36,907 bases of DNA from a bacterium. Its GTDB lineage: Bacteria; Planctomycetota; Planctomycetia; Planctomycetales; Planctomycetaceae. Of this stretch, positions 766-18,062 are shown piece after piece. Numbering within the stretch: position 1 is the first letter of the stretch; each line of letters opens with the position of its first letter. The translations under genes and the position numbers were made by a program. The notes under the pieces were generated by a model. That model saw only the letters and a list, made by a program, of their open reading frames with translations. It was not told the origin of the DNA and ran no database searches. Location: the NCBI GenBank assembly GCA_016124895.1, contig WGMU01000126.1:1-36907 (forward strand). The letters are read 5' to 3'.

Positions 766-2877
766 TCAGCCACTGATGCGAAGACGAATTTTCTCCACAC
801 CCTCGATCATCTCAAGCGCGAACTGGCTTGGCGAAAGAGTGCCCACATTGAGCCCAAGCTCGTTCTCGATCATGCCCTTGAATTTCGCAAGGTCAACGAT
901 CAGTTGGTTCTTCGAGTTCCTGAATGGAACATCGTCGATTGCTGTTGACGCAACCTCTTCGCCTTTGTTGTTGCGCAGCTCTTTGCGGAACCGGCCCGGC
1001 TGACCTGCCAAGCGGTCAAGCCCGAAGTGGATGGTCTCCGGCCGCAGGTGCAGGTCAGTGGTCATCACGACCCCGTCGAAGACACAGATCATGGTGTCGG
1101 GCGCCAGCCGGTCTTTCCGGACGATGTCGAGCCGTTCCTGCGACGGGACAAAGTGGTCGTGCTCGATCGTGTCGCGGTAGCCGTCGATCTGAAACTCCGG
1201 CCAACCGGCGACCACGTGTGAGCGCAGTAGGAAACCAGTCCTCGGCGTGTCGTCCCGCCAGTACGACTCGAGTTCTCGGTCGCGCTGGAGATCGGCAGGT
1301 GTGACGCGTCCAATGCTCATGACCCCGTCGAGCATTGCGCGGATCCAACCAGCATCGATCTGAAAGAACCGGATCGATTCGACAGGGAGCATGCGCTCGT
1401 CAGGGATCAGGTACCAGAATGGCACGCCGTGGAGCAGACGCAATCTGTTTAAAGCGCCTTCAAGCGGCTTGGGCACGCCCAGCTCATCGGCTGTGTACCC
1501 TCGCTGCAGCGGCAGGTGTCTGGCTTTCGTATCGGACTGGGCGACCTGGTGCTGTGCGTGGCGTGTTTTCCAGAGAGCAACCGGCTCGTTGATTGTGGGA
1601 TCGGTGATGGCTAATAGACGCCCGAGTTCCCACGCTGCGGCGTAGGTCGCGTCAAACATCCCGATCTCCGGGTTGTAGTGCAGGAGCTGGTCAGCGGTCT
1701 GTGCGGGGAGCGGATTATCGACTTCGACCGGCCCGGGCGCGAGGGGACCGCGGTACCATGTCTGCAACTGGTCACCTTGCCGCGTGAGGTGTGGCAGGAT
1801 GGTCGAACCCAATCGCAGGTACTGGCCCAGGACGCCCGACTGCTCACTGCCGACCCCGGGTGAGGAGGGCTGCCGATCGAGATTGAGAATGAGGCCCTTG
1901 AAACTCTCTCGGGTATGAGCAGCGCTGGATGCGATTTCAACGAAGAATTGATCCGATCGCTTCTTGCCAATCGCGCGCTTCAGAGCGTCTTGGAAGTTCT
2001 TCGCGCCTATGATCTCGCCCGCGTCAGCAATCTTCGTAACCGCCTTGAGTTCTTCGATGCTCAGGTCGGTCTTCCTGCCGATCGCCTGAACGACCGAGGG
2101 AGTGACAAGGTAGGCCTCGTCGCTGGGGCAGGAGAAACTCCAGTTGTACAGAGACACAAGCCTGACTGGGTCAACGCGACTGTCAAGGTGCTCGATCGAG
2201 ACCAGGTGGGCGGTGGTCGTGGCACCTGGCCTGGGTAGCCGGGTCGCGATTACGACCGCCTGGTCGAGCCCGTCGGGCTCCGAGTTGTCGTTCATGGGGC
2301 GGCGAACATGCGCGGTGAGCGCCCTGACCTGCTCGGGCGGGATCAGGGCGTTCGCATACGATCTTGGCATTGAGAGCACACTGATGCGGGCATCCGGGTC
2401 GTCGCCGGGTTCCGCCACGTACCCCGGAAGCACCATGCCGTCGGTCGAGCTGCCAGTCGCGCGTTCTGACCGCAATGCAGAGACGTTGTGGGTTGATAGT
2501 TGGACCGGATCGCCCTCATGCACAACCAGCAGTGCGAGCCAGGGTTCGGTCTCTGGAGCTCCGGCGCGACACCGTTCCCACGGCAGGGTGCTGCGTTTGA
2601 GGATCACATGTGGGATGACGTTGCCGTGATCGCCGTTATTGCCGCGCGGCGGGAAGACCGACACGACCTCGGTGGGGTCGAGCACAAACCGCTCACCTGC
2701 GATGAAGAAATCATGCTCAGCGCTGTACGGGCGAGAAACAGTCGGAGCCGCGGACCGTTTGGTCGTGACGGATTGGCTGACTGACACCGTGTAGAGCCCG
2801 CTCTCCAGCGAGGGGATATGGCTGTCGATGAACTCGATCTTGCCTTTCGGCATTGTGCTGACAGTGAGGGCGGGCAT
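766..2877 (-). CDS. Conserved hypothetical protein, last gene of left operon (703 aa)
   Basis: This is the last gene of the six-gene minus-strand operon. The ATG at 2877 is chosen because GGAGG sits 4 nt upstream; an upstream in-frame start at 2934 would overlap the previous gene by 29 bp and has no comparable site. The chosen start leaves a 28-nt gap after the DUF6603-like gene. The N-terminus (MPALTVSTMPKGKIEF) has no signal peptide or membrane helix. A segment around residues 55-100 has the pattern F-LDPTEVVSVFPP followed by VIPHVILKRSTLPWER and PWLALLVVHE. I recall this pattern from uncharacterised proteins encoded beside similar giant proteins in other bacteria, but no function is known to me. 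The predicted protein is soluble and probably beta-rich at the N-terminus, and the remainder is unassigned. That it is a real gene is secure; its role is unknown. Confidence 0.85.
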   Translation of the reverse strand: MPALTVSTMPKGKIEFIDSHIPSLESGLYTVSVSQSVTTKRSAAPTVSRPYSAEHDFFIAGERFVLDPTEVVSVFPPRGNNGDHGNVIPHVILKRSTLPWERCRAGAPETEPWLALLVVHEGDPVQLSTHNVSALRSERATGSSTDGMVLPGYVAEPGDDPDARISVLSMPRSYANALIPPEQVRALTAHVRRPMNDNSEPDGLDQAVVIATRLPRPGATTTAHLVSIEHLDSRVDPVRLVSLYNWSFSCPSDEAYLVTPSVVQAIGRKTDLSIEELKAVTKIADAGEIIGAKNFQDALKRAIGKKRSDQFFVEIASSAAHTRESFKGLILNLDRQPSSPGVGSEQSGVLGQYLRLGSTILPHLTRQGDQLQTWYRGPLAPGPVEVDNPLPAQTADQLLHYNPEIGMFDATYAAAWELGRLLAITDPTINEPVALWKTRHAQHQVAQSDTKARHLPLQRGYTADELGVPKPLEGALNRLRLLHGVPFWYLIPDERMLPVESIRFFQIDAGWIRAMLDGVMSIGRVTPADLQRDRELESYWRDDTPRTGFLLRSHVVAGWPEFQIDGYRDTIEHDHFVPSQERLDIVRKDRLAPDTMICVFDGVVMTTDLHLRPETIHFGLDRLAGQPGRFRKELRNNKGEEVASTAIDDVPFRNSKNQLIVDLAKFKGMIENELGLNVGTLSPSQFALEMIEGVEKIRLRISG

Positions 2878-2905
2878 GTGGCCTCCAGCGGGGTGGACGG
2901 GGGGA

Positions 2906-5900
2906 TCAGGAGGCGGTAACGACGGGGTCGGCAAGCAGCACGTCAGCCAGCGACTCCCGCGCCGTCACCGCATCCGACGCGTTGGCGATGCCGAACTCTT
3001 TGAGTATCGCGGCTCGAGCGTTGGCAATTTCTGTCTGGTTGATCGATGCCTGCACTTCATCGCGCCCGGCCTTCTGCACTGTCCGAATGGTTGTCGGCTT
3101 CTCAAAGTGATAGGCGTGGTCGACGGCAGAGATCGCAAACTGAAGATTTCTCCGATCGATCGGTGCCGACGCCCCAGGCCGGGGAGGGGACTTCGCTTCC
3201 AGCCGCAAGCCCCAGACCGTGTTCGGGATCAGCCGGTCGGAAGACAGCGATGGCTTAAGCTGCTTGCCCCACAAAGCTGCGGGCGCCGGTTTCAGGACGG
3301 GTGTGAGCTTAAACCGGTGCGTAACATCGACGCCCTGCTCATGCACAGAGACCGTGAGATGAGTATCCACGTCGCTGGGCGAGGAGATGCCCATCGAGCC
3401 GACCGCAATGCTGCCGACGGTGATGGTCTTTTCGCCGCGAGGCTGTTTGTAGGTAGCGCCGTCGTCCTCGCTGAGGTATTGGCGCACGGCCCCGCCCCCC
3501 GATACTTGAAGCATGTCGAGTGTCACCCGCTGTCCCTTACCGAATGTCACCGCGTTCAATGGGATTGCGGAACCCGCATCGATCGCCAGGTCCTTCCGGT
3601 TGAATTTCCAAACCTCGCGTTGCGGACCGCCGGCTTTGCCGGGCTTGATGGACCCAATCATGCCGGAGATTGAAGCGATCGAGCAGATTTCGGCGGGCCT
3701 GGGCAGGAAGGATGCCTCGAACTCGCTCCATTTCAGGGGGACCGGTGGTGTCGGCAGTCGGCTGCCAAAGTGAACCGTGAAAGTCACGATCCAGAGGTGG
3801 ACACGGGCGGTGCCAGCGAAATCCGGCCCCCAGATGGTCAGGTCCGCCCCAACATTCACCGAGATGTGATGGGTGCCAAAGAAGTGGTAGGTGTAGCGTA
3901 CGCCGACGCCGACTGAGATCGACGCCTCATAGTGGTAGGGCTTCCACGACATGAGGAAGTCCGCGCGAGCACGGAACCAGGCCTCGAGCGAGCCGTCCCG
4001 CCAGGTCGCTTCGAGCATTCCCCCAGCCATCACGGCGCTGGGCGTGAGTGCGAAGAATGCCTCTCCCTTGATCATCAAGTGCGAGTTGAGCCGCCAGGTG
4101 AACCCAAGCCTCGGAACGACCGGGTAGTGCGATGGGGGTTTGAAGTGGTTGTGGTACCCGCCGACGGTAAGGACAAAGTCGCCGGCGTGTTCGTTTGGAT
4201 CGAACCACGTGACGAACGCGAAACCGCCAGTCAGGTGGCAGTCGTGTGAAAGCAGGTAAGAAGCACGGGTCAGTTGGGCACGAACCGAAAGAATACCCTG
4301 GCTGGGAGCAAACACGGCCTCGAACGCCATTTGCACTTCGGCAACCGGTGGCACACTCTTGCCTGCCTCGGGCGTCGGGATCACTGCGGTCGAGATGCCC
4401 AGCACGTCGATGCGGAACTCGTGGCCGAAACTCACCGCAAGCAGCGCGAACGAATCCACGAGCTTGAAGGATGTGAACTTGACTCCGACGGCCGCGAAGT
4501 ACTGGCCGGGAGCGACGCGGATCGCGTCGGCGAGCCCGTTGACAAGTTCGTCCTGGCTGGCTGTGGAGTCCGAGCCCGGCTCGGCTGCCGACGCGGATGT
4601 CGCCACGCGGATGAGCGGAAACTCCTTGACACCCTCGATCGGCGGGGCAATGAACCTGCGGTTGTAACCGAAGCCCAGCGCCAGGCCCGTCACAAAGAAG
4701 AATGACGGCCCCCCGAGCGGCGTGTTCAGGACCGCGTAGACGAACAACGACGGCTGGTTCTGCACATAGGCGAATGAGCCAATGGCAGCGAGTGACCAGC
4801 TCTTTGCCCGCACCGTCGCCGATCCGTCGTACTCATCGAAAGCTTCCAAGCCCTCCCGCGCTGGGACATGTTTGCGGACCAGAGCCCCGCCGATCTCGAT
4901 TGCGTCGTTTGAAAAATCAATCCCGACGCCGTTGAGCCCGAACGAGGGATGCAGCGAAATGGGCGGCTTCAGATCATCCAGCTTCAGCTTTGCCGTGAGA
5001 CCGTCGAGCGTGAGCGTCAGGCCAGCCGCACTGAACGACCCATCAATCAGCACACCGACCTCGCCGTCCTGATACCGGACACCCACGCGCCCGAAATGCA
5101 CCGGGCCCAGCTTCTTCTGGATGCTGAACCACTTGGGCTCGCCGGGCGCCGCCGCTGTCGCAGCCCCCCCGCCGCTCTGCCCGCTGGTTTCCACCAGCTC
5201 GCCCGTGTCTTTGGACGCGCCGATGGGCAGGGCCAGCTCGATCTGCTTGTCGCCGATCTTCATCGACGTGTGAAGCGTCAGCCCCTGCGCGATCTCCTGG
5301 CCTGGGAAGCGGGCTCCACCTTGCGGCAACAACTGGGAAAACGCGGACGACTCGTCAGCGGTGAATGTGCCAATCGCGATCAATGGAGATAATGCGATCC
5401 GCACCGACTGGTCTGGCGGGACCAGCTTCCCAACCAGCGGGAGGTTGGACAGGTCGATCCCCGCGTCAATGTCCATTGCGAGCAGCAGCCGGTTCCCGGT
5501 TTTCTGGCGACGATCAAACGCGAGCGCGGCGTCGCGCACGGTGAAGCTGAACCGTCGTCCCAGATCGATAACCTCTTTGGAGTCGGTCAGCTGCGCGATC
5601 ACGTCGCCAAGGTTGATCTGCTTGCCATTCGGGTCGCTGTATCCGGCAACGAATGCGGTGAGCGCAGGCTCTTTAGCAAAGGCAACATCGAACTTCAGGC
5701 CACCGACGGTCAATTGGCCCGTGAACAACGCGCTGTAGTCCTTCTCACCCGTCCGTTTCAGGGCAACTGACATTGCAAGCTCGACGTGGGAACTCCCGGC
5801 GGGAAATGCGATCACACCAGACAATGCCAGGTCGCGCGCTCCCGTGTCGAAGCGCCCCGTGATCTTCGAGAGTTCCAGTCCCTCTAGCGGCGCGGGCAGC

Positions 5901-7450
5901 GCTGGCGTGAAGCCCAGACGCTTGGCGAAGTTGTCGATCACATGCCCGACCTCGATCGCGTGTCCCTGAGCGGCGGACCCGATCATCTTCATGCCGACAC
6001 CGGTCTCGTACTCGCCGGCCAGCCAGAGATCGATGCCGCCGATGTCCAGCTGGCCCTGGACGGCGATGGTACCCGCGCCGGGCTGGTGTCTGGCATCAAC
6101 CGCAAGTGTGTGCAGTTCAAGACCTGGCGTGATAGCCCATTCACCTTCGGCTACTGTCAAAAACTCATAGTTGGATTGGCTAAGGCTGAATTGAAGACGT
6201 CGAAGCGTCGTTGATGGCATGCCAGTGGGGCGGCCGACAAGGTCGTCGAGCAAGACATCCAAGTGGACTTCTGAACCATCTTTGATCTCGCCGTGCGCCT
6301 CGAAATCCGGCGCCAGAGCACCAACCACCAGCCTGCCGTTGCCCGCCAGGTCGATCTCACCTTCTATCGAAACCGATACGGAGCGGCTGCCGAAGGGGTC
6401 GAAGATGATGATCAGCGCATCGGCCTGTTCGATAGCGATGTCTTTACGCGGCGGGTCGCGTCGCACGATCGGCAGCGGCCTGCCGGTTTTGATCTCCAGG
6501 CCGACCTGGGAAACGGAGAGGCCGCCTTTGGTGTCGATCTCAACGAAGAAGCGTTTTAGCGAGACAGTGTCGGAGAGCTTGAGATTATCGGGCATCGCGG
6601 CAGCAATACCCACGCCGTTGACGAGCGCCTTAGCAATCTCAGTGATCCCTGCATCGATCAGTTGCTCCGGCTCGGCGGTAAATCGCAGTGCCTGCCCGAG
6701 GTTGAACGCGTCGGCGCGGACGGGCACGTCCGCCCGCCTGCCGCCGATGGTCAGGGGGATCGTCGCCATCAGCGAGACGTAGGGCAGCAGCGTCTGCTTC
6801 TTATCGAACGCGTTGTTTAAGGCTGAGGCGCCAATCGCGATCTGCGTATCGACCATCTCAAAGAGCTTGAGGTCGATCGTACGAAATTTCGGCCCCAGCA
6901 GCTCGAATGAGAGAACCTTCGACCCCTGTTCGGCGAGTATGATCTCTCCATGCAGCGCCACGCTGGGCAATCCCTTGCCATCAGGCTTCAGGATCGTGGC
7001 GAGTGGGCCACCAATCGCATCAAGGTCCAGTTCGAAATCGAGGGTCAGTGTTGTTTTGCCTGCCGCAGAGGTGATCCGCACCTTCGGCTTCGAACTCGAC
7101 GCGATCTTCATCGCTTCGGAAACACCCGCGGGTACCGAATCGAATGCTGACCTCAGCGTCCAGCCGTTAACCGCTTCGGCGGTCAACTCCAGCGACACCG
7201 GATCCGTATCGGTAAAAAAATCCGCGGTGACCACGGTCGATGCCAGCACCCCATCTACACCGCTGCCGATGACGCGGATGCCTTCTCGCTCGGCGATCGT
7301 CTGTTCAGAAGAACCCGAAAGTTTGAGCAACCCGCCAGGGAAAATGTCTGCGACGACCCGATCGAGGTCCGGTGACGCGACAGTCTTGAGATCAATCGAG
7401 CCCACTCGCAGCCCGGCATCAATCGCTTCGCGTAGGTATTGTTTCGACAT
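2906..7450 (-). CDS. Giant DUF6603-like protein (1514 aa)
   Basis: This very large protein is the fifth gene of the left operon. The ATG at 7450 has GGAG six nt upstream, whereas an in-frame ATG 12 nt earlier has none. The gene begins inside the end of the metallo-beta-lactamase gene (32-nt overlap including the stop), which suggests translational coupling. The first roughly 800 residues consist of repeated beta-strand-like segments (patterns such as LxLxGxIxLAGxG and GVIAFPAGSSHVELAMSVAL). From about residue 780 comes a region with HFGRVGVRYQDGEVGVLIDG, then GGPSFFFVTGLALGFGYNRR near residue 925 and many amphipathic beta segments. The GxxFFFVTGLALGFGYNR motif is what I associate with the DUF6603 family. 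No signal peptide or transmembrane helix is evident. Family biochemistry is unknown to me. The beta-rich, repetitive make-up suggests a structural or shell/fibre component, which is inference. The DUF6603 assignment is moderately confident. Confidence 0.82.
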   Translation of the reverse strand: MSKQYLREAIDAGLRVGSIDLKTVASPDLDRVVADIFPGGLLKLSGSSEQTIAEREGIRVIGSGVDGVLASTVVTADFFTDTDPVSLELTAEAVNGWTLRSAFDSVPAGVSEAMKIASSSKPKVRITSAAGKTTLTLDFELDLDAIGGPLATILKPDGKGLPSVALHGEIILAEQGSKVLSFELLGPKFRTIDLKLFEMVDTQIAIGASALNNAFDKKQTLLPYVSLMATIPLTIGGRRADVPVRADAFNLGQALRFTAEPEQLIDAGITEIAKALVNGVGIAAAMPDNLKLSDTVSLKRFFVEIDTKGGLSVSQVGLEIKTGRPLPIVRRDPPRKDIAIEQADALIIIFDPFGSRSVSVSIEGEIDLAGNGRLVVGALAPDFEAHGEIKDGSEVHLDVLLDDLVGRPTGMPSTTLRRLQFSLSQSNYEFLTVAEGEWAITPGLELHTLAVDARHQPGAGTIAVQGQLDIGGIDLWLAGEYETGVGMKMIGSAAQGHAIEVGHVIDNFAKRLGFTPALPAPLEGLELSKITGRFDTGARDLALSGVIAFPAGSSHVELAMSVALKRTGEKDYSALFTGQLTVGGLKFDVAFAKEPALTAFVAGYSDPNGKQINLGDVIAQLTDSKEVIDLGRRFSFTVRDAALAFDRRQKTGNRLLLAMDIDAGIDLSNLPLVGKLVPPDQSVRIALSPLIAIGTFTADESSAFSQLLPQGGARFPGQEIAQGLTLHTSMKIGDKQIELALPIGASKDTGELVETSGQSGGGAATAAAPGEPKWFSIQKKLGPVHFGRVGVRYQDGEVGVLIDGSFSAAGLTLTLDGLTAKLKLDDLKPPISLHPSFGLNGVGIDFSNDAIEIGGALVRKHVPAREGLEAFDEYDGSATVRAKSWSLAAIGSFAYVQNQPSLFVYAVLNTPLGGPSFFFVTGLALGFGYNRRFIAPPIEGVKEFPLIRVATSASAAEPGSDSTASQDELVNGLADAIRVAPGQYFAAVGVKFTSFKLVDSFALLAVSFGHEFRIDVLGISTAVIPTPEAGKSVPPVAEVQMAFEAVFAPSQGILSVRAQLTRASYLLSHDCHLTGGFAFVTWFDPNEHAGDFVLTVGGYHNHFKPPSHYPVVPRLGFTWRLNSHLMIKGEAFFALTPSAVMAGGMLEATWRDGSLEAWFRARADFLMSWKPYHYEASISVGVGVRYTYHFFGTHHISVNVGADLTIWGPDFAGTARVHLWIVTFTVHFGSRLPTPPVPLKWSEFEASFLPRPAEICSIASISGMIGSIKPGKAGGPQREVWKFNRKDLAIDAGSAIPLNAVTFGKGQRVTLDMLQVSGGGAVRQYLSEDDGATYKQPRGEKTITVGSIAVGSMGISSPSDVDTHLTVSVHEQGVDVTHRFKLTPVLKPAPAALWGKQLKPSLSSDRLIPNTVWGLRLEAKSPPRPGASAPIDRRNLQFAISAVDHAYHFEKPTTIRTVQKAGRDEVQASINQTEIANARAAILKEFGIANASDAVTARESLADVLLADPVVTAS

Positions 7451-8699
7451 AGTGCGCTCCATCGGTGTTTAGCGTGTAATGCTGCGACCCGTGGGCCGTC
7501 ATTCGAATCGCGGCATTCCCAACCTCGCGAAACAAAAACCAAGGTACTTGACCTTGCACCTTGTAACCAACACAGTCCTGCGCTTTGGTGCTTTCGGCGT
7601 ACGAGAACGATGATGGGAATCCCGGCTTGGTTTCACCAAACCTACCGTACACCTCATTCCAGTGTGCATGCAGCTTGTTCCTGGATGGCTGCTCATTTGT
7701 TTCGTCGCCATCAATCGTCTGTGTCCAATAGTCGAATGGGTGGGGATTGTCGTGTATATTGCCGCGTCCTTGTACATTCCCGTCTTCATCCGTCTCGTAC
7801 ATTTTCTCCAGCCAGTTACTAATCGGTCGCGTGTAGCGGGGCAGCCTGTTGACGTGCTCCAGGAAGCCGACACTAACCACAACCTCGGTCGGGTTGGTCA
7901 AGCCAACAAACTCCGCAGTCGACGAGGACTCACTGCCATGGTGGGGAATCTGCACGAGATCCATATTTTTTAGTCGGGACTTTTGTTGATCTACGAGAAA
8001 AGCCTCCGTGGACTCTGTCGCGTCTCCCATAATCAATGCCCTCCTGCCTCCGATACTGAAGCGGGTAACAATACTTCCCGCGTTGACCTGGTTAGACAGG
8101 TGCCCATCTACATGCAATACATTTGACGCAAGTATCTGGACAGACCACTTATCCGTACCTACCGTGCCGGAAAATACCTCATGGTATTTCGATATGATCG
8201 AGGTTGCACCTGAAGTAGCGTAGACTGGACGAGTTCCAGAAGCATCAAGGTTCCATATAGTCTGCTCCTTCTTGGCGAAGTTGATCGTAATGTCGTGAAT
8301 ACGATTCACGGTAACAACGTTAGAATATACGTTGGCGCCAAAGGCAGTTCCGGCCCCGTACATCGCGAGTGGGCCATCGGGAGTTCCAGCACTGACATAC
8401 AGATCCTCGACACTCAGTGCTGGCATAGGTTTGGCAGGGTCATGACTGCCCTGCAGCAGATCGAGAGCCTTGTTGTGATGGTCCCCATCTGGGTGCGTAA
8501 GAATCATCGCGTCAATGTTGGTCCTCCCACACAGGAAGTCGGCACCCCGCAGCCACTCCTTAAACGTGCCAAAATCCCCCGCGCCCAGCGCATCGCTTGT
8601 GCGACCGCAGTCCACGACGACGACTCGACCGTCCGGACACCGGACGAAGCAACAGTCGCCCTGGCCGATCTCGAGAAAGAGGAAATCAAACTGAGACAT
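7419..8699 (-). CDS. ComEC/Rec2-type metallo-beta-lactamase-fold hydrolase (426 aa)
   Basis: This is a stand-alone metallo-beta-lactamase domain of the type found at the C-terminus of ComEC. Visible motifs are the N-terminal strand ending in VVVDCG (residues 27-32), the metal-binding THPDGDHH (68-75), GDATE (225-229) and IPHHGSESS (251-259). These give the set of His and Asp ligands expected for a binuclear zinc centre, so it should be an active hydrolase, possibly on nucleic acid or phosphoester substrates. That last point is family knowledge, not shown here. ComEC-like membrane segments are absent. The ATG at 8699 has GGAGG five nt upstream. The gene follows the LamG gene by 27 nt and overlaps the next gene. 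An extension of about 130 residues after the catalytic part (from about residue 290) has no recognised domain. It is the only apparent enzyme in the operon. Confidence 0.9.
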   Translation of the reverse strand: MSQFDFLFLEIGQGDCCFVRCPDGRVVVVDCGRTSDALGAGDFGTFKEWLRGADFLCGRTNIDAMILTHPDGDHHNKALDLLQGSHDPAKPMPALSVEDLYVSAGTPDGPLAMYGAGTAFGANVYSNVVTVNRIHDITINFAKKEQTIWNLDASGTRPVYATSGATSIISKYHEVFSGTVGTDKWSVQILASNVLHVDGHLSNQVNAGSIVTRFSIGGRRALIMGDATESTEAFLVDQQKSRLKNMDLVQIPHHGSESSSTAEFVGLTNPTEVVVSVGFLEHVNRLPRYTRPISNWLEKMYETDEDGNVQGRGNIHDNPHPFDYWTQTIDGDETNEQPSRNKLHAHWNEVYGRFGETKPGFPSSFSYAESTKAQDCVGYKVQGQVPWFLFREVGNAAIRMTAHGSQHYTLNTDGAHYVETIPTRSD

Positions 8700-8726
8700 A
8701 TCGCCCTCCGCGTGGCGGGGTGGTTG

Positions 8727-11147
8727 TTAGAAGTTCGATCCCTTGATCGTGGCGGTGTAGTGCTTGCCGGTGTTGTCTTTCCAGTAGAAGTAGATCTGGT
8801 CGAGCCAGGGGCCACCGATGATCAGTGAGTGGGCGGGCATCGCGTTGTCCTGCAGCAGCTTCTTGGCCTCTTCGTTGTTCGCGGCCTTGGAGAGGACCAT
8901 GTAGTGGCCCTGGACGTGGAACCTGGTCTTGGGCGTGGTGGTGCCGATCCCGACATAACCGTTCTTCTGCACGGTCAGCCGGGGGGCGTCGTCGGTCTCG
9001 ACGACGAAGCCGCCGTTCGCGTCCTGGCCGATGTCGATGAAGCCGCTTCCCGCGCCGGTGTAGCGCACCTGCGCGCCCGCGCCCCCGCCGTGCCACTCCC
9101 CGACCAGGCGGGTGCCGGCGATCGAGCCCTCGCCCTTGGGGAAGTTGTAGACACGGAAGAACGAGCTGTTGGGGTTGGTGACGTCGAAGAAGCCGAAGGC
9201 ACGGCTTGAGCCGACGACGACCGCGCCGTCCTTCTGCACGACCAGCCGTGGGATGTCATCGCTCTCCACGACGAATCCGCCGTGGCGGTCCTGGCCGATG
9301 TCAATGAACCCGCTGCCCGCGCCGGTGTAGCGTACCTGTGCACCCGCGCCCGCCCCGTGCCACTCGCCGACCAGCCGGGTACCCGCGATCGAGCCCTCGC
9401 CCCTGGAGAAGTTGTAGACGCGGAAGAACGCGCTGTTCTGGTTGGTGACGTCGAAGGTACTGCTCGGGACTGCAACGCCGACACCCACAGACGAACCGGA
9501 GAAACAGACCGGGCTCTTCTCGACAGTGGTCGTGAGCGTGCCGTCCCTGTACCCCGGAATGTTTTCATAGTGCAGATAAACCGCAGTCGGACCAGGCTGA
9601 AGATCGGTGTAGACGTTGCGAAGTTCGATATCGAAGAACTCCGCCGGGCCGAGTTTGGTGACTGCGGGGTGCAGGCTCCACTCGGGCGATCGCCCCTCGA
9701 CGCTCTCGGCGGGAACCTGCCTGCCGTTGTGGAAAACGCCGAAGCCGATCGCGTGGTCATTGCTGGCGATCGCCCAGGGGACTGACCTGCCGTTGGGCTG
9801 TGTGTCAAACGCGAGGATGGCCTTCGACGGTGCATCCTGCTGGGCACTGTTGAAGCGGATGGTGTTGTTCTCGCGTTCGGCGGGGTCATCGGGCAGCGTG
9901 TTTGTGACACGGAGCCTGAGCGTGTTAGCGGTCACTCCGTTGTTCTGGATCCGCCGTGAGCCGACGATATCCAGACGCAGCGGGATCGAGACTCTTCCGC
10001 GCTCGTTTACGATCGAAACGTGCCGCAACCTCGTCCGCGTCAACGCCTGGCCGCCCGCGGTTGCGAGCCCGCGATACCTGAACAAGACGCGTGTACCTCG
10101 GCTGCCGCCGCCGGGGACGACGACCACGTTCGTGATCGTCAGCCGCTGGAACGCGCCCGGCTTGATCGAAACCTCCTGGTCGGAGTGAAAATGAAGCGTC
10201 ACACACCCGTCTGCGGACTTTGAGTACGAGACGCGCCAGCCCTGCTCCGTGATGCACAGTTTGTCGAGCGCCGCGTCCTCCAGCGTACCCGGTCGGAAGC
10301 ACAAATCGAATAATGCGCCAGATCCTTTAGTGTCGGTGGCCGCTGCGTCGGCAGGCACAAAGCGGACGGGCTTGCTGGTCTCGTTGAGGATTTCCAGATA
10401 GTACGTTGCCGGACTCTCACGAATCGCGAGCACGTCGTGCTCGTGGTCGTCGTAGATTCGGAACCCGATGGGGTGGGCTTGATGGAAGGCGCTCAGCGCC
10501 GTCTGGTCGCTGTCCATCGTGCGAACGATTTCATCCGCGGCAAGCGCCCGGGAATAGACCCTCAGATGGGCGATCCCGCCGATCATACCTGCCGCGTCCC
10601 CGCCCCCGGCCACAACGATCGGCCCGTCCGCCGCCGCCACCGTGTCCTGCGTGGCCTCTTCACGGTTGCTCAGGCGGCCGTTGAGGTACCAGGAGATTGT
10701 CCTGGCCGACAGGTCGCGGACAACGGAGATATGTGTCCAGACGTCTGTCTCAATCGGCTCGCGGGCACCGACCTCCCCGGTGCCCTCCCCTGCTGCTTGA
10801 TCACCGCTGTAGCGGTAGGCCAGCATGCCCCCGGCGTCGAGCATGATTGCCCCTTCGCCCGCCGGTGTCTTGTTGAACACGACACGACGATCGCCGAACT
10901 CGCTGGGCCTGATCCACATGGCGATCGTTTGATCCCCTGTGAGCGAGGGTGTCCCTTGCTGCGGGCTCTCAACACCCTGGTCTGGCGCCGCGAACACTAT
11001 CGAAGCTCCAACGATCGCGTCGTGTGAGAGCCGGGGTTTACCGACAATCGTCCCATGTCTGTGCGCACCGGAATGGTCGGGGGTTGACCCGGCCTGGAAT
11101 TCCGAAAACGGAAGATACAAAACAAGATCGTTGATTTGCTTAGCCAT
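8727..11147 (-). CDS. LamG-domain protein with tail-fibre-like C-terminal repeats (806 aa)
   Basis: This is the third gene of the left operon, starting at an ATG with GAGG six nt upstream and overlapping the 69-aa gene by 8 nt. Residues 8-212 look like a LamG / concanavalin-A-like jelly roll, starting LVLYLPFSE with DHSG, then AMWIRPSEF, WTHISVVRD, WYLNGRLS and IGGIAHLRVYSRAL. Residues 215-560 are a beta-rich middle of unknown type. Residues 565-653 and 654-742 are two near-identical 89-residue repeats (FDVTN-NS-FFRVYNF, GSIAGTRLVGEWHG, GSGFIDIGQD). The second ends in YVGIGTTTPKTRFHVQG, a signature seen at the distal end of many phage tail-fibre and pyocin-type proteins. A 60-residue C-terminal cap follows. 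There is no signal peptide. The layout suggests a carbohydrate- or surface-binding fibre. Its place in a phage-like particle is inference, because no sheath, tube or capsid gene is present here. Confidence 0.88.
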   Translation of the reverse strand: MAKQINDLVLYLPFSEFQAGSTPDHSGAHRHGTIVGKPRLSHDAIVGASIVFAAPDQGVESPQQGTPSLTGDQTIAMWIRPSEFGDRRVVFNKTPAGEGAIMLDAGGMLAYRYSGDQAAGEGTGEVGAREPIETDVWTHISVVRDLSARTISWYLNGRLSNREEATQDTVAAADGPIVVAGGGDAAGMIGGIAHLRVYSRALAADEIVRTMDSDQTALSAFHQAHPIGFRIYDDHEHDVLAIRESPATYYLEILNETSKPVRFVPADAAATDTKGSGALFDLCFRPGTLEDAALDKLCITEQGWRVSYSKSADGCVTLHFHSDQEVSIKPGAFQRLTITNVVVVPGGGSRGTRVLFRYRGLATAGGQALTRTRLRHVSIVNERGRVSIPLRLDIVGSRRIQNNGVTANTLRLRVTNTLPDDPAERENNTIRFNSAQQDAPSKAILAFDTQPNGRSVPWAIASNDHAIGFGVFHNGRQVPAESVEGRSPEWSLHPAVTKLGPAEFFDIELRNVYTDLQPGPTAVYLHYENIPGYRDGTLTTTVEKSPVCFSGSSVGVGVAVPSSTFDVTNQNSAFFRVYNFSRGEGSIAGTRLVGEWHGAGAGAQVRYTGAGSGFIDIGQDRHGGFVVESDDIPRLVVQKDGAVVVGSSRAFGFFDVTNPNSSFFRVYNFPKGEGSIAGTRLVGEWHGGGAGAQVRYTGAGSGFIDIGQDANGGFVVETDDAPRLTVQKNGYVGIGTTTPKTRFHVQGHYMVLSKAANNEEAKKLLQDNAMPAHSLIIGGPWLDQIYFYWKDNTGKHYTATIKGSNF
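8922..9455 (-). repeat. Tandem 267-bp repeat inside the fibre-like gene
   Basis: Two in-frame copies, 9189-9455 and 8922-9188, encode consecutive 89-residue units of the fibre-like protein. Long stretches are identical at protein level (for example GSIAGTRLVGEWHG and AQVRYTGAGSGFIDIGQD). Their similarity points to a fairly recent duplication or to continuing gene conversion. Confidence 0.85.
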
Positions 11148-11349
11148 GGTTGGCCTCTTCAGTCTGGATCGAGCGGTCGTGTGATTCTCCCGGTGCCTGC
11201 TGGCCCGGCCTGTCCTGGCCCAGCGCCGTGCTCACCTGGTCCTGAAGGTTACTCATCAGCTCGAACACCTCGCGGAACGGCCTGTAGCCGAGCGCATCGA
11301 GCACGAGGTTGATTTCATCTACAGTGAGTCGGATCGGTATGGTTTGCAC
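11140..11349 (-). CDS. Small hypothetical protein (69 aa), operon-embedded
   Basis: This short gene is squeezed between the 1294-aa and 806-aa genes. It starts at a GTG whose GAGG Shine-Dalgarno, six nt upstream, lies inside the last codons of the preceding gene; the preceding TAA ends one nt before the GTG. It overlaps the next gene by 8 nt. The N-terminal half (IRLTVDEINLVLDALGYRPF, then EVFELMSNLQDQ) looks like a helical pair. It resembles small proteins of unknown function found among phage structural genes, with a pattern of LT-DE-N-VL-ALG-PF--V-ELI. The C-terminal third is polar and probably disordered. It may be a chaperone or adaptor for the fibre-like protein encoded next, but that is a guess from position only. 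Confidence 0.75.
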   Translation of the reverse strand: MQTIPIRLTVDEINLVLDALGYRPFREVFELMSNLQDQVSTALGQDRPGQQAPGESHDRSIQTEEANHG

Positions 11350-11350
11350 G

Positions 11351-14300
11351 TTACGCCTCTTGAGTCTGAGTCGGTTTTGGGTTCGTCGTAGTCAGGCGCA
11401 GCCAGCCATCCTTGAGTTTGAGCTGCGGCGGGAACTCCACCTGCATTGGCGGAAGCTGGATGTCCTGTTCCTGAGTTTCACTGAGTCCGTCGGTGTGTCG
11501 CTCAATCCACACCCACTCCTGGCCGGGGGAGTGCGGAACCATGACGGCGGTACGGTCGCCCGCGGTCAGGATGGGAGTGGTGAAGAAGAACGCGTGTATT
11601 CGACTGAGCGCCGCGGCGTACTTTTCAGGTGGGATCGAGATCTCTTTGGTGGGAAGCAAACCCGTCGTCGCGTGGACGCTGCCCCTGGGGTCCAGCAGCA
11701 TCGCCACCCTTAAGGGGGCCGCCGCAAGCGAATGGACCAGCCCCGAGCCGTTACCACCGGCACGGATGCGGTCGTCCTGGTCGTCAGCCGACGCATTACC
11801 CGGCGGGACCCAGAACACATCGGGCTGAGAATGGCCTTCGATCCAATATCCGATGAGCCCGTCGTTGAGCTGACCGTGCTCACCGAGGCGTATTGGTATC
11901 TCGACACGCTGGAACGCGTTGGTTTCGCGCGTCACGCCCTGCACATCACCGAGCAGCGCCAGCCAGCCGTGGTGGACTGCGGGGTCACCAAGCAGTTCAA
12001 CTCCCAGCTCACCGCGCACAACTGCAAGGGGTCTGGAAACAAGGAGCGCGACACCCGAGTGATGGGCTGCGGACTCGGGATGAATGCCATCGATCGCAGA
12101 TTCCAGTGCTCCGAGAAATCGACCGACGTACTCCGCACCAAGCCGGGTCAGCCTGCCTGCGATGAGGCGGAGGTGCGGGTCGGCGATCGTGCCCGGTGAG
12201 CCGCAGCCGCCATCGCCGGGGGGAGGTTCCCAGCGTGCCTCGGCCCCAGTGCGAGCCTGGAGCGCGAAAATCGACCCGAGCGGGTGGCCGTCTGTGTCAA
12301 AAAACACAAGGCTCTTGTCGAGATAGTTGGGCATCACCCACCCGCAGATCGGCGAGTCGATGCGCTGAGAGCCCGCATGAGCGTCGGCCTGGCTGGCCGA
12401 GAGAAAACGGAAGCTCATACGGGCAGGCTGGGTAATTGCCGGCTTGAGAAAGATCGGATAGGTCGACGTGGGGTTGATCATCGAATTCGAAGCAACGATC
12501 TGTTCGCGATGCAGGGCAAGGTTATCCGAAGCCCTGCCGAAGCTGTCCAGCAGGCGCATCGAGGTAATGGTCATCGCGCCGGACCGGATCGGATTAAAGT
12601 CATTCAACGGCTCGGGCGCGACGCGGTTAAAACGGCCAACCGCTTCACGCACCCGCTGGTCGGTAAACTCGCGGTACTCCTCAAAGCCCAGCGGATCGGC
12701 GATATGTAGCTGATATGTCTGACGGTGCATCAGCAGCGCATCATTGAAACCGCTGAGTGCCTGCGAGAGTCCGGTCGTCTCAAGCAGTCTGCGATAGGCT
12801 CGGATTGCCGTATACAACCCGTCCTGCGCACGCTCCTGCTCGCCCATCTCGGCCAGATACACGGCAGAGTACCACTTCTCGATGCCTTGAGCCTCACTTG
12901 CGCTGATCCTGTGGGGCCGGGTCGACCCGTCCAGCTCGGGAATCTTCTCGGACGGATTATCTTTGTTATACAGAGGGACGAGCCGCTTGCTCAGAAATGC
13001 CCCGACTGCGTCGCGCAGCACATTCCCCGACTGGGGGCTAAGAATGCTCTGACCGCGGTAGGTGTTTGCCCCTTTGACGGTTCTGCCACCGCCCTCACGC
13101 AAGGCATACTCACAGGCGTCGCCGTCAATCCTGTAATTCGCAGTGATAAAACCGGGGTCGTAGTCCGCCGAGTCGCCGTGAATGTTACCCCGTTCCAGGA
13201 GCGGGAAGACTTCAACCTGCCATTCGAGGATGAGCGGGTGCCAGTCCCCGGACTGCTGGATCCGGCGTCCGAGCGTCCACGCTTCGGTCTCAATCAGTTC
13301 CTGCGAAAGCCGATCGCGAACCAGCGCAGTATCACCGGCCGTGGCAGGCGGAAGCTCGGCCTGAAAAGCCCCGCAATCCACGGGCGAATTCGAGTATCGC
13401 GGTGTCGCCTGCATCTGCTCACCGGTCAGGAACGCAACCGGCTCGTTTGGACGCCAGTACCTCGGCCCCGGCACGCGTTTGACGGTCAGACGCCTGCCGG
13501 GGACCGTGTCATCGTCGTGGGCCGCTTCAATCTCACCGTTGTGCGCCGCAGCCAACCGGACCAGCTCCGTAACCGCAGAAGCGAGACTCGATGCAATGGA
13601 ACCTTCCGCAGATCCCGGCGCGGCAGCGCCGGTTACGCCCAGGTCGGAGGCGGTAACCACCAGGGTTCCCCGTTCCTGCTCAGCGTTCTTGATGTCGTTG
13701 AGTGTGCGAATCTCGATGAAGGTGCGCAGCTCATCGAGATCGGGGTACTGATCGCGTGAGCCCTCGGGCGGGTAGGCCGCGCTCATGTATTTGTACCAGT
13801 CGGCAAAGAGCAGTTTCCGGAGGCTGTCGAGCCGAGCCGAAGCACTGTCATAGTCCCTTTGAAGCCGGTTGGCCTCGCGCTCGGCAGCAAGCAGCGCGGT
13901 CTCGTAGGCAGTGGGCAGGTCGTCGTCGACCTCGTCCGCCTGGGCCGGACGCTGCGGGTCGGCGACTTTGCGGAGCACCCATAGCTCGCTGCCCGTCTCG
14001 GCCGAAAACGCGTTGCTGTGCCGCGACTCTCTGAACTTCAGTCCCACGTCCAAGCGCCGGTTCTCGAATTCGGATTCCAGTTGAATCGCTTCGAGCTGGT
14101 CCTCAATCACATTCTTCAATTCGGGATCAATCTCGCTGGCTATGAAGGTTGAGATCGCTTCAACACCTGTGTGCCCGATCGCCAGCCGGACATGGTCGGG
14201 GTTGGGTGTTGCGACTTGCTCTGCTCCGCCGCGAACATCAATCCGACCGCAACACATACACCGGTCAGGCAGCGCCGCATCGCTTGGCCAGACGCATAAC

Positions 14301-15235
14301 AACTCCTCGGTGAGGTACTTCCGCAGCACTTCGTCACCGGGGGCCTCGCCGGCATCCCGAGCAAACCTCGCGACATATTCAGCAATGCCGCACCCAATAA
14401 AATCATCCTCGCCGTCGCTGTACCAGCCGATCACGTCATACTGAGCGTCCTGCATGCCCAGACAAGCCGGCAAAGGGTCATAAAGTCCGAAGACACTGTG
14501 GGAGTTAGGATAAAGCGCCGCGAACGTCGGCGTGCCGAAGCCTGCTGACGTCAACGGGGAAAAACGGTCGGCATCGGGGTCCTCGGCCCACGCCTCAAGA
14601 GGCACGCATCGACCGAGCGTACGAAACGGTGCCCCGACCTGGGCATCGATCGGTATGGAGACGCCGCCATTGCCTTTGCCGTCGATGCACTGCCCGACGT
14701 AGTCGCTTTCAACAACCCAACTCTGGTCGCGACCACTGGATCGCCTTGTGACCAGCCAGCGGTTTGGCACTGGGAAGAAATCGCCGCCGACCGCCGATGC
14801 AAGTGACTGATTGAGCGTCGCTGCATGTCGCGCATAGCGGCCGGAGATCGGCTTGAGCGCGGTCGGCATGATCGAATACCAGCGGTCATTGAGCCGGACC
14901 AACAACCCGATTTCGACAAGGTGATTGATAAAATCAGCGTCGCCCCCGAATACTCGCAGCAGGTCCTCGTGCCTTGCTCGCCGCCCACCCGTGGTCCGGG
15001 ACAACGCCGTGGGCAAAGCCCAGTGCAGATGCACGCCTGCCTTAAGTGTGCCCGTCAGGTCCTGGTATGGCTGAGAAACAAGATTCTCGCTCAGGTTAGC
15101 GACATCGGGCTGATGATCACAAAATCCATCAGAATAGGGCGTGCGGCGAAAGTCCGTGGTCGCACCAGACACCGCGATATCATGATCCAGCAAGAGCGCA
15201 TCCACATGGATTGGTATAACCGCAACCATCCTCAT
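11351..15235 (-). CDS. Giant GVHLHW-motif protein (1294 aa), first gene of left operon
   Basis: This appears to be the promoter-proximal gene of the operon. The ATG at 15235 and a GTG one codon earlier (15238) are both possible; an AGGGGGA stretch lies 10 and 7 nt upstream of them respectively. The N-terminus has IPIHVDALLLDHD and, at about residues 63-76, LTGTLKAGVHLHWALP, a motif I recall from a widespread family of very large uncharacterised bacterial proteins. PDRCMCCGRIDV near residue 325 contains a CxCC cluster that could bind metal. A helical, charged segment at about residues 375-530, including the stretch LLAAEREANRLQRDYDSASA, is probably coiled coil. The rest is mixed alpha/beta with no motif I can name. 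No signal peptide or membrane helix is visible. It is probably a large structural or scaffold component; its function is unknown. Confidence 0.85.
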   Translation of the reverse strand: MRMVAVIPIHVDALLLDHDIAVSGATTDFRRTPYSDGFCDHQPDVANLSENLVSQPYQDLTGTLKAGVHLHWALPTALSRTTGGRRARHEDLLRVFGGDADFINHLVEIGLLVRLNDRWYSIMPTALKPISGRYARHAATLNQSLASAVGGDFFPVPNRWLVTRRSSGRDQSWVVESDYVGQCIDGKGNGGVSIPIDAQVGAPFRTLGRCVPLEAWAEDPDADRFSPLTSAGFGTPTFAALYPNSHSVFGLYDPLPACLGMQDAQYDVIGWYSDGEDDFIGCGIAEYVARFARDAGEAPGDEVLRKYLTEELLCVWPSDAALPDRCMCCGRIDVRGGAEQVATPNPDHVRLAIGHTGVEAISTFIASEIDPELKNVIEDQLEAIQLESEFENRRLDVGLKFRESRHSNAFSAETGSELWVLRKVADPQRPAQADEVDDDLPTAYETALLAAEREANRLQRDYDSASARLDSLRKLLFADWYKYMSAAYPPEGSRDQYPDLDELRTFIEIRTLNDIKNAEQERGTLVVTASDLGVTGAAAPGSAEGSIASSLASAVTELVRLAAAHNGEIEAAHDDDTVPGRRLTVKRVPGPRYWRPNEPVAFLTGEQMQATPRYSNSPVDCGAFQAELPPATAGDTALVRDRLSQELIETEAWTLGRRIQQSGDWHPLILEWQVEVFPLLERGNIHGDSADYDPGFITANYRIDGDACEYALREGGGRTVKGANTYRGQSILSPQSGNVLRDAVGAFLSKRLVPLYNKDNPSEKIPELDGSTRPHRISASEAQGIEKWYSAVYLAEMGEQERAQDGLYTAIRAYRRLLETTGLSQALSGFNDALLMHRQTYQLHIADPLGFEEYREFTDQRVREAVGRFNRVAPEPLNDFNPIRSGAMTITSMRLLDSFGRASDNLALHREQIVASNSMINPTSTYPIFLKPAITQPARMSFRFLSASQADAHAGSQRIDSPICGWVMPNYLDKSLVFFDTDGHPLGSIFALQARTGAEARWEPPPGDGGCGSPGTIADPHLRLIAGRLTRLGAEYVGRFLGALESAIDGIHPESAAHHSGVALLVSRPLAVVRGELGVELLGDPAVHHGWLALLGDVQGVTRETNAFQRVEIPIRLGEHGQLNDGLIGYWIEGHSQPDVFWVPPGNASADDQDDRIRAGGNGSGLVHSLAAAPLRVAMLLDPRGSVHATTGLLPTKEISIPPEKYAAALSRIHAFFFTTPILTAGDRTAVMVPHSPGQEWVWIERHTDGLSETQEQDIQLPPMQVEFPPQLKLKDGWLRLTTTNPKPTQTQEA

Positions 15236-15238
15236 CAC

Positions 15239-15579: not shown

Positions 15580-16196
15580 TCAGGCTGCGACTTCGAGGCA
15601 GGGATTCTGGGAGTTTTCGCATCTGGCCATGATCTTGACGAACGACTTTGTCGTCCACTGGAAGGGATGAGCGATCTCGTTCCACTCGGCGATGAACTGC
15701 TGCAGGCTCTGCTGCAGGTGGGCCAGGTCGCGAAAGTCCACGATCCGCAGACGCTTGCGACGCAGGATCGAAAACCACTGCTCCACCCCCTTTCGTTTGT
15801 GAAGACGGTTCAGCCACGAACAGTGCATCGGCGGGAATGAGAAGCGGAAACGCTCATGCCCGGACAGCCACTGCCTGGCCAGTTTGCCATGGTGCGTCGA
15901 CACATTGTCCAGAACGACGTGGATCCGGGTCTTCTCTGCCGGAACCTCGCGGTCGATCTTTTCCAGCAGTTCGATCAGCTCGACCTGTCGTGTCGCTTGC
16001 GGCGTGCCGTCGTGCCCCACACATGGCCGGTCCGTGTGTCGAACGCCGCAAACAGATTCACCGCTCCGCACCGCGAGTATTCGTGTTCGTACTCCACCGG
16101 ACGGCCCGGAACGGCCGGTCGAGTTTCGCTGCTTCGCGGACGCGGCTGACCCGTGCCGAAGTGTACGGCAGGTATATGACACCACCGCCGTGCGGC
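15580..16196 (-). pseudogene. IS630-family transposase remnant, 5'-truncated and frameshifted
   Basis: The C-terminal half of a DDE transposase is visible in two frames. The upstream piece (about 16160 to 16010) contains GRPVEYEHEYSRCGAVNLFA, the usual IS630 segment before the second catalytic Asp. The downstream piece contains VELIELLEKIDREVP, IHVVLDNVSTHHGK (catalytic Asp), FPPMHCSWLN and GVEQWFSILRRKRL (with the final Glu), ending near 15580. The frame changes between about 15985 and 16025, around the bases AAGCGACACGACAGG; a 5-nt insertion there would explain it, but programmed frameshifting cannot be excluded. The N-terminal helix-turn-helix half and the first catalytic Asp region are missing. 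The gene is fused at about 16196 to another broken mobile gene. It is almost certainly inactive. Confidence 0.8.
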
Positions 16197-17228
16197 CTTC
16201 ATCCGGTGTTTCACCCGCGCTCCCGGGTAACGCTTCTGCTTCATGTCCGTGAGCACTTCACCCTGGAACCGCCCGTGCAGTTTTCGACCGAGGAAGGTCA
16301 AAACATCCTCGGCCCCGAAGCACAGCGTGGCGTGCTTCAGGAGTTGTTGATACGGAACTTTCAGAGCGTCGGCGTCATGGAACATGACATCCGTGGCGTA
16401 CTCGGCCTGATCCATGACCCAGTAGTACTCGAGTCCTGCGAGCACATCCTTCAGCAGTGGATTCACACGCCGGGCCAGCGCGCCGAGCACCCGCGGCCAG
16501 TTCTTTTTCTCGAACCGGTCGGCGAACTTCTGCGCCCGAGGACAGTCACTGATCCACAGGAACGCGTTGTCCTGTTTGCGGTACTCGATGCCGTGCTGAT
16601 CCATCTTCCGGGCCGGCACGGCCGGTTTGTTGCAATAACGTGGCAATGCGTGAGCGGCGTCGACTGCCATCAGCCGCCGTGCCGTACAAACCGCCCACGG
16701 CGGCCATTCGTGACCGTTCAGGCAGACCTGAATCACCAGCGGGAACCAGGACTGAATGCGGACATGCATCAGCCCGAACTCGCGGTCAATGCCCGTTTTC
16801 AATATCAAAGCCGGGAAGTAGAAACACAGGCACTTGCGTGTGGCATTGACCAGCCGCGGCCGGCCTTCGCCGGGCACGAGCTTGAAGCTCTGACAGGGTT
16901 CGAGCACCCGCAACACGCAGACCAGCCCCTGCGTGATGCCGTCGTCCTCGGCGAGCTGCCGGGCGAAGTCATCCTTGCGCAGGCGGCCGTAGACGTAATG
17001 AAACGGCCGGTTCGCCCGGGCCGCGATGGCTTCGGCATGCTCTTTGATCCGCGCGGAGTGCTTCAGAACAAACGCTTTGAAGTCCTTGATCCGCAGTCCC
17101 TGCCGGGTCAGCAGACCTTCCATCGCATCGCCCCATCCCAGCGGCAGATAGCCCTTGAACAGAATCCGATCGAAGCAGGAGATGACTCCGGAGATGCGAT
17201 CGCTAAACTGACGAATGAACTTTTCCAC
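16197..17228 (-). pseudogene. C-terminally truncated gene of a repetitive planctomycete family
   Basis: The GTG at 17228 is chosen because GAGGAG lies six nt upstream and because family members begin with this residue pattern (M-[DE]-[RK]-FI--F-DRI-GVISGFDR). About 344 codons remain. Visible blocks are KFIRQFSDRISGVISCFDRI, DDGITQGLVCVLRVLEPC, RKCLCFYFPAL, FGLMHVRIQSWFPLVIQVCL, CPRAQKFADRFEKKNWPRVL and YYWVMDQAEYATDVMFHD. I recognise this as a high-copy family of uncharacterised proteins in planctomycetes and some other phyla that behave like mobile-element genes. The frame breaks off after RVKHRMK, where family members normally continue for a few dozen residues, and continues into IS630 sequence to a stop at 15975. 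About 30 residues around VDAAHALPRYCNKPAVPARK may be an insertion relative to the family. The function of the family is unknown to me. Confidence 0.7.
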
Positions 17229-17281
17229 GGCGTTCTCCTCGCGATGGCGGTGTGACAACACCATCGTGACGGCAGAACGCC
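17229..17281 (-). promoter_or_regulatory. Hairpin overlapping the start of the truncated mobile gene
   Basis: Read on the minus strand, GGCGTTCT and AGAACGCC form an 8-bp stem that encloses a second stem built from CGATGG and CCATCG, with a small bulge. The inner pairs of the outer stem reach the last bases of the GAGGAG Shine-Dalgarno, and the base of the stem abuts the GTG start. Such a structure would hold translation down. Self-limiting translation by a 5' hairpin is known from several transposase genes; here it is inference. Confidence 0.4.
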
Positions 17282-17617
17282 GTGTCCCCCCCCCTGAGCC
17301 CTCGACTCCTGGCCCTCCCCACTTTGGTTGCAGCCGTCGGGCCGCGCCAGGCGCCTCCTGACACCAGCGCATCATGAACTGGGAATCTGTTTCAGGCAGA
17401 GCCACTCCATTCCGGAGGCCATTGTCAGGCCGCCGGGATACGCCCTGAAAGTGCTGGTCCAGCCTCCGCGGCGCTGAAACTCCGGCGGGATTGAATCGGC
17501 AGGGTCTTGTCGCCAGAATACCCGCCCGATTCAGACGTTGTAATCGTCGAACCTCGGTCGAAGTACCTGAGAATCGCCGCTTCTCCCGAATTGCCAATGA
17601 CTTACAGGTAGTACGAA
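17282..17617. other. Region without a recognisable gene
   Basis: About 340 bp upstream of the truncated mobile gene and before the 82-codon plus-strand gene. A C-rich run lies near 17284-17295. The minus-strand frame stays open through here, but its composition (Arg- and Pro-rich, no motif) and the well-placed GTG at 17228 argue that it is not coding. No repeat or promoter is convincing. Confidence 0.5.
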
Positions 17618-17963: not shown

Positions 17964-18050
<87 letters not shown>

Positions 18051-18062
18051 CCTTCACTGACA

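Follow-up and report, generated by a model that had tools for sequence, protein, structure and literature searches.

Genes of the six-gene unit

Contig WGMU01000126.1 (assembly GCA_016124895.1) belongs to a bacterium of the family Planctomycetaceae, and its 36,907 nucleotides (nt) are the stretch of DNA analysed here, referred to below as the window. The unit under study consists of six consecutive genes on the minus strand. In gene order they encode a giant protein of 1295 amino acids (aa) designated GVHLHW (15238–11351), a 69-aa protein (11349–11140), an 806-aa LamG fibre protein (11147–8727), a 426-aa protein with a ComEC-type metallo-β-lactamase fold (MBL; 8699–7419), a second giant of 1518 aa that carries DUF6603 (7462–2906), and a 703-aa protein (S703, below 703; 2877–766). 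Genes were called by a simple longest-ORF (open reading frame) rule.

All six ORFs of the initial annotation are present, separated in gene order by a gap of 1 nt, an overlap of 8, a gap of 27, an overlap of 44 and a gap of 28. The overlap between the MBL and DUF6603 genes is 32 nt if DUF6603 is read from its second ATG. The 703 ORF is open back to a TTG at position 2934, and GGAG precedes the ATG at 2877. Purine-rich stretches resembling Shine-Dalgarno sites precede most of the starts, as judged by eye and as annotated.

Three of the six proteins match a Pfam family above its cut-off, namely DUF6603, Lactamase_B and Laminin_G_3. The DUF6603 giant is a clear member of PF20248 (E 7e-148; 493.7 bits against a cut-off of 27), a domain to which Pfam assigns no function. 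At a threshold of E 0.1, neither GVHLHW nor 703 had a match in any of Pfam, PHROGs, NCBIfam and PADLOC. In a profile search of PDB by sequence, neither of them had a match up to E 10, and DUF6603 had matches only at E 1.7 or worse. The DNA of the unit has no near match among E. coli genomes. No paper naming DUF6603 was found in the literature, nor was one describing the unit among the titles and abstracts listed, in a coverage without preprints and most subscription journals.

Neither a signal peptide nor a membrane helix was detected in the five large proteins of the window by a crude hydrophobicity test, which agrees with the annotation. By the same test, signal-like starts were seen among relatives in 1 of 89 GVHLHW, 1 of 87 DUF6603, 0 of 74 703, 0 of 34 LamG and 0 of 13 MBL proteins, and membrane-like stretches in 11 DUF6603 proteins, one 703 and one MBL.

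Recurrence of DUF6603, 703 and GVHLHW

In a first look at plasmids, those of Paenibacillus polymyxa, Streptomyces and Embleya proved to carry adjacent genes for DUF6603, 703 and GVHLHW. When GVHLHW served as bait in 84,980 species genomes, 125 relatives were found, the best 80 of which were kept, a choice that favours relatives close to the window. The 80 loci (numbered with the prefix L, as are those described later) were labelled by six-frame profile search, with family profile hidden Markov models (HMMs) refined on hits from the very loci they score. DUF6603 was detected in 73 of them, 703 in 71 and both in 70. Among loci of at least 18 kb, 60 of 63 hold both; of the three exceptions, two (L034 and L053) have a DUF6603 gene that extends as far as the locus edge, and the third (L059) is a GVHLHW fragment. 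The carriers belong to at least eight phyla (Chloroflexota, Cyanobacteriota, Actinomycetota, Pseudomonadota, Acidobacteriota, Bacteroidota, Bacillota and Myxococcota), besides KSB1 and SAR324 bins, and some hosts, Herpetosiphon among them, have the unit in two or more copies.

The reverse test used 25 regions of up to 20 kb baited with DUF6603, some of them extra copies in known carrier genomes (L107–L113 come from genomes already picked as carriers). A profile-labelled DUF6603 is present in 22 of these regions, and in 20 of the 22 it is accompanied by a 703-family protein and a giant, partly as edge fragments. Of the other two regions, L113 has a giant but no 703-family protein, and L103 is truncated by the end of its contig. 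L114, L118 and L119 have very long ORFs with weak Pfam matches to DUF6603 (E 1e-11 to 8e-4) and no partner genes. With 703 as bait, 20 of 24 chosen carriers gave a match. The long matches adjoin DUF6603, the isolated ones are three short fragments only, and the four carriers without a match had been identified through DUF6603 only. When GVHLHW was the bait, 4 of 296 genomes of Actinomycetota (the phylum of L016) gave a match, each with DUF6603 no more than 7 kb away on the same contig; this count includes G343, the centre of the draw, and at most two candidates were scored per genome. The presence of DUF6603 is patchy, at 2 of 59, 3 of 294, 9 of 296 and 5 of 201 genomes, the centre genome being counted each time.

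The initial annotation had treated all six genes as one system, with recurrence in unrelated phyla as support and homologues occurring mostly alone as the contrary outcome. The counts given above (70 of 80 loci and 20 of 22 regions) bear out recurrence in unrelated phyla. The conserved system is a three-gene core of DUF6603, 703 and GVHLHW and does not comprise all six genes.

The gene for the 69-aa protein is part of the unit in a subset of loci only. HMM matches to it were found in eight loci, in six of which it was called between GVHLHW and LamG, the junction that it occupies in the window. The protein had been labelled phage-like, a description that is not upheld, as it matched no PHROGs family and gave no tblastn match at E 1 in 50,697 phage records.

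Gene order, spacing and subtypes

The order DUF6603-703-GVHLHW is seen in 38 of the 80 GVHLHW-baited loci, and 12 more have the same order with a LamG-family fibre gene after it. GVHLHW lies ahead of DUF6603 in 15 loci, as it does in the window; Herpetosiphon, Microcystis, Micromonospora and Actinoallomurus are among their hosts. The complete order of the window, GVHLHW-69-LamG-MBL-DUF6603-703, recurs in two loci (L021 and L024). Thus, of the proposal that the same genes recur in the same order, conservation of order across phyla was borne out, but the window shows the commonest order in cyclically permuted form.

Spacing is tight throughout, with a median of -1 nt from DUF6603 to 703 (72 pairs), 4 nt from 703 to GVHLHW (57 pairs) and -4 nt from MBL to DUF6603 (11 pairs, in several phyla). 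Divergence is correlated among the three core proteins, their pairwise distances over 63 loci giving r 0.74–0.80, a value reached in none of 999 permutations but confounded by shared ancestry. A quick tree of GVHLHW, made without bootstrap, requires 19 changes of phylum against a minimum of 7; for example, Undibacterium is nested in a group with Lewinella. Together with the patchy presence of DUF6603, this fits lateral transfer.

Two subtypes depart from the arrangement in the window. The 22 DUF6603-labelled regions comprise 11 of type I, with GVHLHW, and 10 of type II, in which the 703-like protein is longer, though truncated or absent in some, and the giant is another one, of ~1560–2150 aa where complete. 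Type II was assigned to L095, L097–L101, L106, L111, L113 and L117, and also to the plasmid loci L010 and L011. Some of the loci labelled by the type II models had also contributed to building them; L101, L113 and L117 are independent of them, and the succession of genes had been seen before modelling. The 703-like proteins of the two types have a common N-terminal region (hhalign probability 97.5%, E 6.9e-12, 226 columns). A relationship between the type II giant and GVHLHW was considered and rejected, as no similarity was found.

The other subtype has a long DUF6603 protein of 2200 to >3200 aa, edge-cut in some loci (L057, L063–L066, L074, L090, L105 and L110), and in several of these loci 703 is split into two genes. 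No Pfam domain was found in the DUF6603 extension in L110. An apparent DUF6603-703 fusion in L074 was dismissed, the two matches being in different frames. The Hydrogenophaga unit L057 lies a few genes from yhdP, and the same gene cluster, c9, is found in L064 and L066.

The fibre position

The LamG protein of the window matches Laminin_G_3 (E 2.7e-18). It includes a lectin domain at residues 56–207, a middle domain common to its relatives at about 215–560 and a fibre-like C-terminus, to which tail-fibre families of PHROGs match weakly (1.3e-4). The annotation as a fibre-like lectin with a C-terminus of phage-tail type is retained, the tail-fibre matches being weak. In phage records the protein has one short match that covers 12% of it. 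Several relatives have the middle domain but not the lectin domain, and in the fibre proteins a conserved middle or N-terminal part bears changing outer parts.

The gene beside GVHLHW often belongs either to the LamG family (27 members, forming one similarity cluster) or to a second family (23 members), and the bases of the two fibre families resemble each other faintly (E 3.7e-4, probability 36%). A Pfam scan of the genes downstream of or inside the core, covering 67 of 119 listed genes and two from L003, gave matches to LamG, F5/8 type C (discoidin), PLAT, seven-bladed propeller, Kelch, Sortilin/BNR and Tail Collar domains. L018, L029, L050, L079 and L087 have two to four fibre copies each. 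On these comparisons, the LamG gene occupies a predicted exchangeable fibre slot, which would serve in recognition.

The enzyme position

The MBL protein matches Lactamase_B (E 2.7e-9) and retains intact THPDGDH and HHG motifs, as expected for a metal site of ComEC type. Among 16 MBL-labelled proteins, HxDxDH or HxHxDH is present in 15 (two of them with HxHxDH) and HHG in all 16. In NCBIfam, the window protein matched ComEC (1e-12, over part of the protein), 6A-MBL (5e-12) and Avs1a (2e-7), all far below the curated cut-offs, and in PADLOC it matched LmuA (2e-14) and RTasMBL (1e-10). Residues 204–278 match a PHROGs family named 'tail protein' (7.6e-15). The likeness to ComEC-type enzymes lies in the two motifs and the partial ComEC match, but the window protein is without the membrane part, belongs to the DUF6603 unit and scores far below the ComEC cut-off. 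It is probably a nuclease.

A gene directly upstream of DUF6603, on the same strand and within 300 nt, encodes an MBL protein in 14 of 48 cases. Other genes at this position encode Peptidase_S8 (L098), Peptidase_M64 (L100) and Exo_endo_phos (L041) proteins. A Pfam scan of 58 of the 70 upstream genes listed gave Trypsin in two, Exo_endo_phos in two and M91 in one. From inspection by eye, the upstream genes of L011 and L095, whose products include a GDSG motif, appear to encode trypsin-fold proteases, and that of L108 an EEP nuclease. MBL is thus one of several genes found directly upstream of DUF6603, several of them predicted enzymes.

Predicted structures

A model of residues 371–1518 of DUF6603 (predicted local distance difference test, pLDDT, 83; predicted template modelling score, pTM, 0.64) includes long antiparallel strands with helices between the sets, in repeats of about five or six strands plus one helix. 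The best Foldseek matches were ApoB100 (E 7e-6), LptD (E 8.5e-5), S-layer porins and ushers, with query-normalised TM-scores of at most 0.15 among the 50 matches listed. In the VIA comparison, Z was 12 to 15 at a root-mean-square deviation (rmsd) of 9 to 25 Å, and porin-like matches had Z of about 14 at about 13.5 Å. Neither AsmA nor VPS13 was among the 50 matches listed in the two comparisons. Hydrophobicity alternates along the strands with a value of 2.52 as against 1.52 for shuffled sequences, and none of 2000 permutations gave a value as high. DUF6603 is read from the model as a giant amphipathic β-meander that may be lipid- or membrane-competent, a barrel not being proven.

GVHLHW was modelled with AlphaFold2 (AF2) using the Herpetosiphon relative L012, which is 39% identical to the protein of the window (pLDDT 90.6, pTM 0.90). 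Searched as a single model of 1152 residues, it matched nothing significantly in PDB (best Foldseek E 0.46; best VIA Z 5.1 over 126 residues, rmsd 4.4) or in BFVD (best E 0.084), in searches that used the whole model and could miss matches of single domains. TcdA was among the weak matches, with Z 4.0 over 114 residues.

Comparison with phage and other known systems

The core is not of phage origin as far as could be traced. GVHLHW, DUF6603 and 703 gave no tblastn match in the 50,697 phage records, and short-pattern scans of viral contigs for DUF6603 and GVHLHW, with 703 left out, revealed no relative. An origin from a phage or prophage was therefore rejected for the core. Tail sheath PF04984 has no match in the genome of the window, and in 12 other carriers its matches are on different contigs from the core or separated from it by more than 250 kb, so that a contractile injection system, whether an extracellular one (eCIS) or a tailocin, was likewise rejected. 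Scanned against Pfam, PHROGs and NCBIfam, the six proteins matched no tube, baseplate or ATPase family. These searches bear out the initial annotation, in which sheath and tube genes were said not to be visible, and, as far as they go, they count against the outcome, raised there, that the region is part of a known phage or eCIS gene set.

Three known kinds of system offer partial parallels. eCIS and tailocins have exchangeable fibres and possibly enzyme cargo, and passages in PMC10598620 describe release of tailocins by lysis, a likeness in working only; their sheath, tube, baseplate and ATPase families were not recognised in the DUF6603 unit. Tc (ABC) toxins, as portrayed in parts of PMC7264150 and PMC11067744, combine a few very large proteins with receptor-binding and enzymatic parts. 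This again is a likeness in working, whereas no Rhs-repeat shell, TcB/TcC or other Tc domain was matched by the six proteins in Pfam, and the fold of GVHLHW is without a significant PDB match. The VMAP and vWA-MoxR ternary conflict systems, in the sections of PMC7159879 that deal with them, have a constant core and exchangeable effectors, as the DUF6603 unit appears to have, but no vWA, MoxR or other nucleoside triphosphatase (NTPase) domain was found by Pfam in its proteins.

Flanks of the unit

A DDE_3 transposase remnant lies to the right of the unit (15580–16185), and two ORFs scanned at its left edge matched no Pfam family. Mobile-element debris, described on both sides by the initial annotation, was thus found on the right only; the accompanying idea of transfer as a block fits the GVHLHW tree. 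The DDE_3 remnant and a tRNA-Ser(GGA) gene (15580–18052) at the right edge form a possible island boundary. Farther to the right are three consecutive caspase-like Peptidase_C14 genes on the plus strand, two of them with DUF4384 (18765–24112), then genes for TPR-CHAT, Hsp70-like and kinase-like TPR proteins, all in one direction on the minus strand (24681–33810), and a minus-strand gene for a protein with many matches to coiled-coil families (35500–36888).

Interpretation

The unit is apparently one recurrent gene system, undescribed and new as such. Our preferred reading, to which we assign a probability of roughly 40%, is that it specifies a non-contractile complex that binds targets through a fibre and carries an enzyme. 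The DUF6603, 703 and GVHLHW proteins would form the invariant body of a large multi-protein complex, the LamG protein would be an exchangeable fibre that binds a target surface, and the MBL protein would be an exchangeable enzyme tied to DUF6603. The course that we infer, from complex formation and release to membrane engagement, enzyme delivery and nuclease activity, would begin in the cytoplasm, where assembly is suggested by the lack of signal peptides. The complex would leave the producer by lysis, in the manner of tailocins, and dock on its target via the fibre. The amphipathic β-structure of DUF6603 would then interact with a membrane or with lipids and so give the enzyme access to its substrate. 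On this reading the site of action would most likely be outside the producing cell. A released complex that docks and brings an enzyme is suggested by the combination of absent export signals, exchangeable surface-binding fibres and exchangeable hydrolases. The preferred reading is also favoured by the linkage of the core genes with either bait, by their close spacing and by the correlated divergence of their products.

Several observations weigh against this reading. No lysis, holin, ATPase or assembly genes were recognised in the unit with Pfam, PHROGs and NCBIfam. The downstream genes sometimes look unrelated (a recombinase, an FAD oxidoreductase, a glycosyltransferase and, in L063, a polyketide synthase). 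Many of the genes upstream of DUF6603 have no recognisable domain, a few, such as those for an acyl-CoA dehydrogenase (L048) and VanZ (L086), are clearly of a metabolic or membrane kind and look unrelated, and the PhoD match of the upstream gene in L099 is below the cut-off of Pfam. Since some neighbours look unrelated or show no domain, neither the fibre nor the enzyme slot is universal. Within the core, GVHLHW is not indispensable to DUF6603, because type II has another giant in its place, and on a plasmid of Paenibacillus sonchi (L004) 703 and GVHLHW are adjacent with no DUF6603 in a stretch of 31 kb. The resemblance of DUF6603 to ApoB and porins is one of kind only, given an rmsd of 9 to 25 Å.

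The same absence of export signals in the proteins of the window would also suit an intracellular conflict (immunity) system, in which a fibre, lectin or propeller protein senses an invader, the giants act as a scaffold, and an MBL, protease or nuclease kills the cell or the phage inside. The MBL protein resembles defence MBLs (6A-MBL, Avs1a, LmuA and RTasMBL), caspase and CHAT genes are also present in the window, and a constant core with varying effectors recurs in such systems according to the sections of PMC7159879 cited above. However, the unit has no recognised NTPase or known switch, and the fibre-like C-terminus and the PLAT, discoidin and tail-collar domains suit surface binding better than sensing in the cytosol. 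The NCBIfam scores of the MBL protein are far below the cut-offs, and its match to ComEC is as good as those to the defence families. On balance we regard a conflict system as rather unlikely.

The structural model of DUF6603 raises a different prospect, a complex for handling lipids in which DUF6603 is a lipid-carrying β-structure, similar to ApoB or to bridge proteins, and the other proteins coat or target it. ApoB100 and LptD are among its top Foldseek matches and the alternation of hydrophobicity along its strands is strong, but TM-scores of no more than 0.15 among the 50 matches listed and the large rmsd argue the other way. Lectins, tail-collar proteins and proteases would be odd partners, and there is no AsmA, VPS13 or lipid-transfer Pfam match in the unit. 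We consider such a complex improbable. The least probable of the readings weighed is an apparatus for surface adhesion or a matrix, without enzyme delivery, the enzymes being chance neighbours. Binding domains are indeed the commonest recognisable accessories, and 50 of the 80 GVHLHW-baited loci consist of DUF6603-703-GVHLHW with or without a LamG-family gene and have no MBL label. Such an apparatus is hard to reconcile with the lack of an export signal in the crude test, and with an MBL gene that is tightly coupled to DUF6603 (median -4 nt in the 11 pairs) in several phyla and keeps its active-site motif intact.

The three core genes are kept together across at least eight phyla, although neither GVHLHW nor 703 could be placed in a family of Pfam, PHROGs, NCBIfam or PADLOC. 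Returning to the non-contractile complex, we put forward tentatively, as a proposal somewhat more doubtful than the complex itself, that the unit represents a new class of delivery particle, not related to either phage tails or Tc toxins, with a DUF6603-703-GVHLHW body and exchangeable fibres and enzyme cargo, spread laterally across phyla. Should it prove to be a delivery particle, it would form a class of its own alongside contractile injection systems and Tc toxins; should it be a defence system, its architecture would be new. Either way, the unit offers a route to a function for DUF6603, with hosts such as Herpetosiphon and Streptomyces, and it may be a new kind of protein machine that recognises and attacks other cells.

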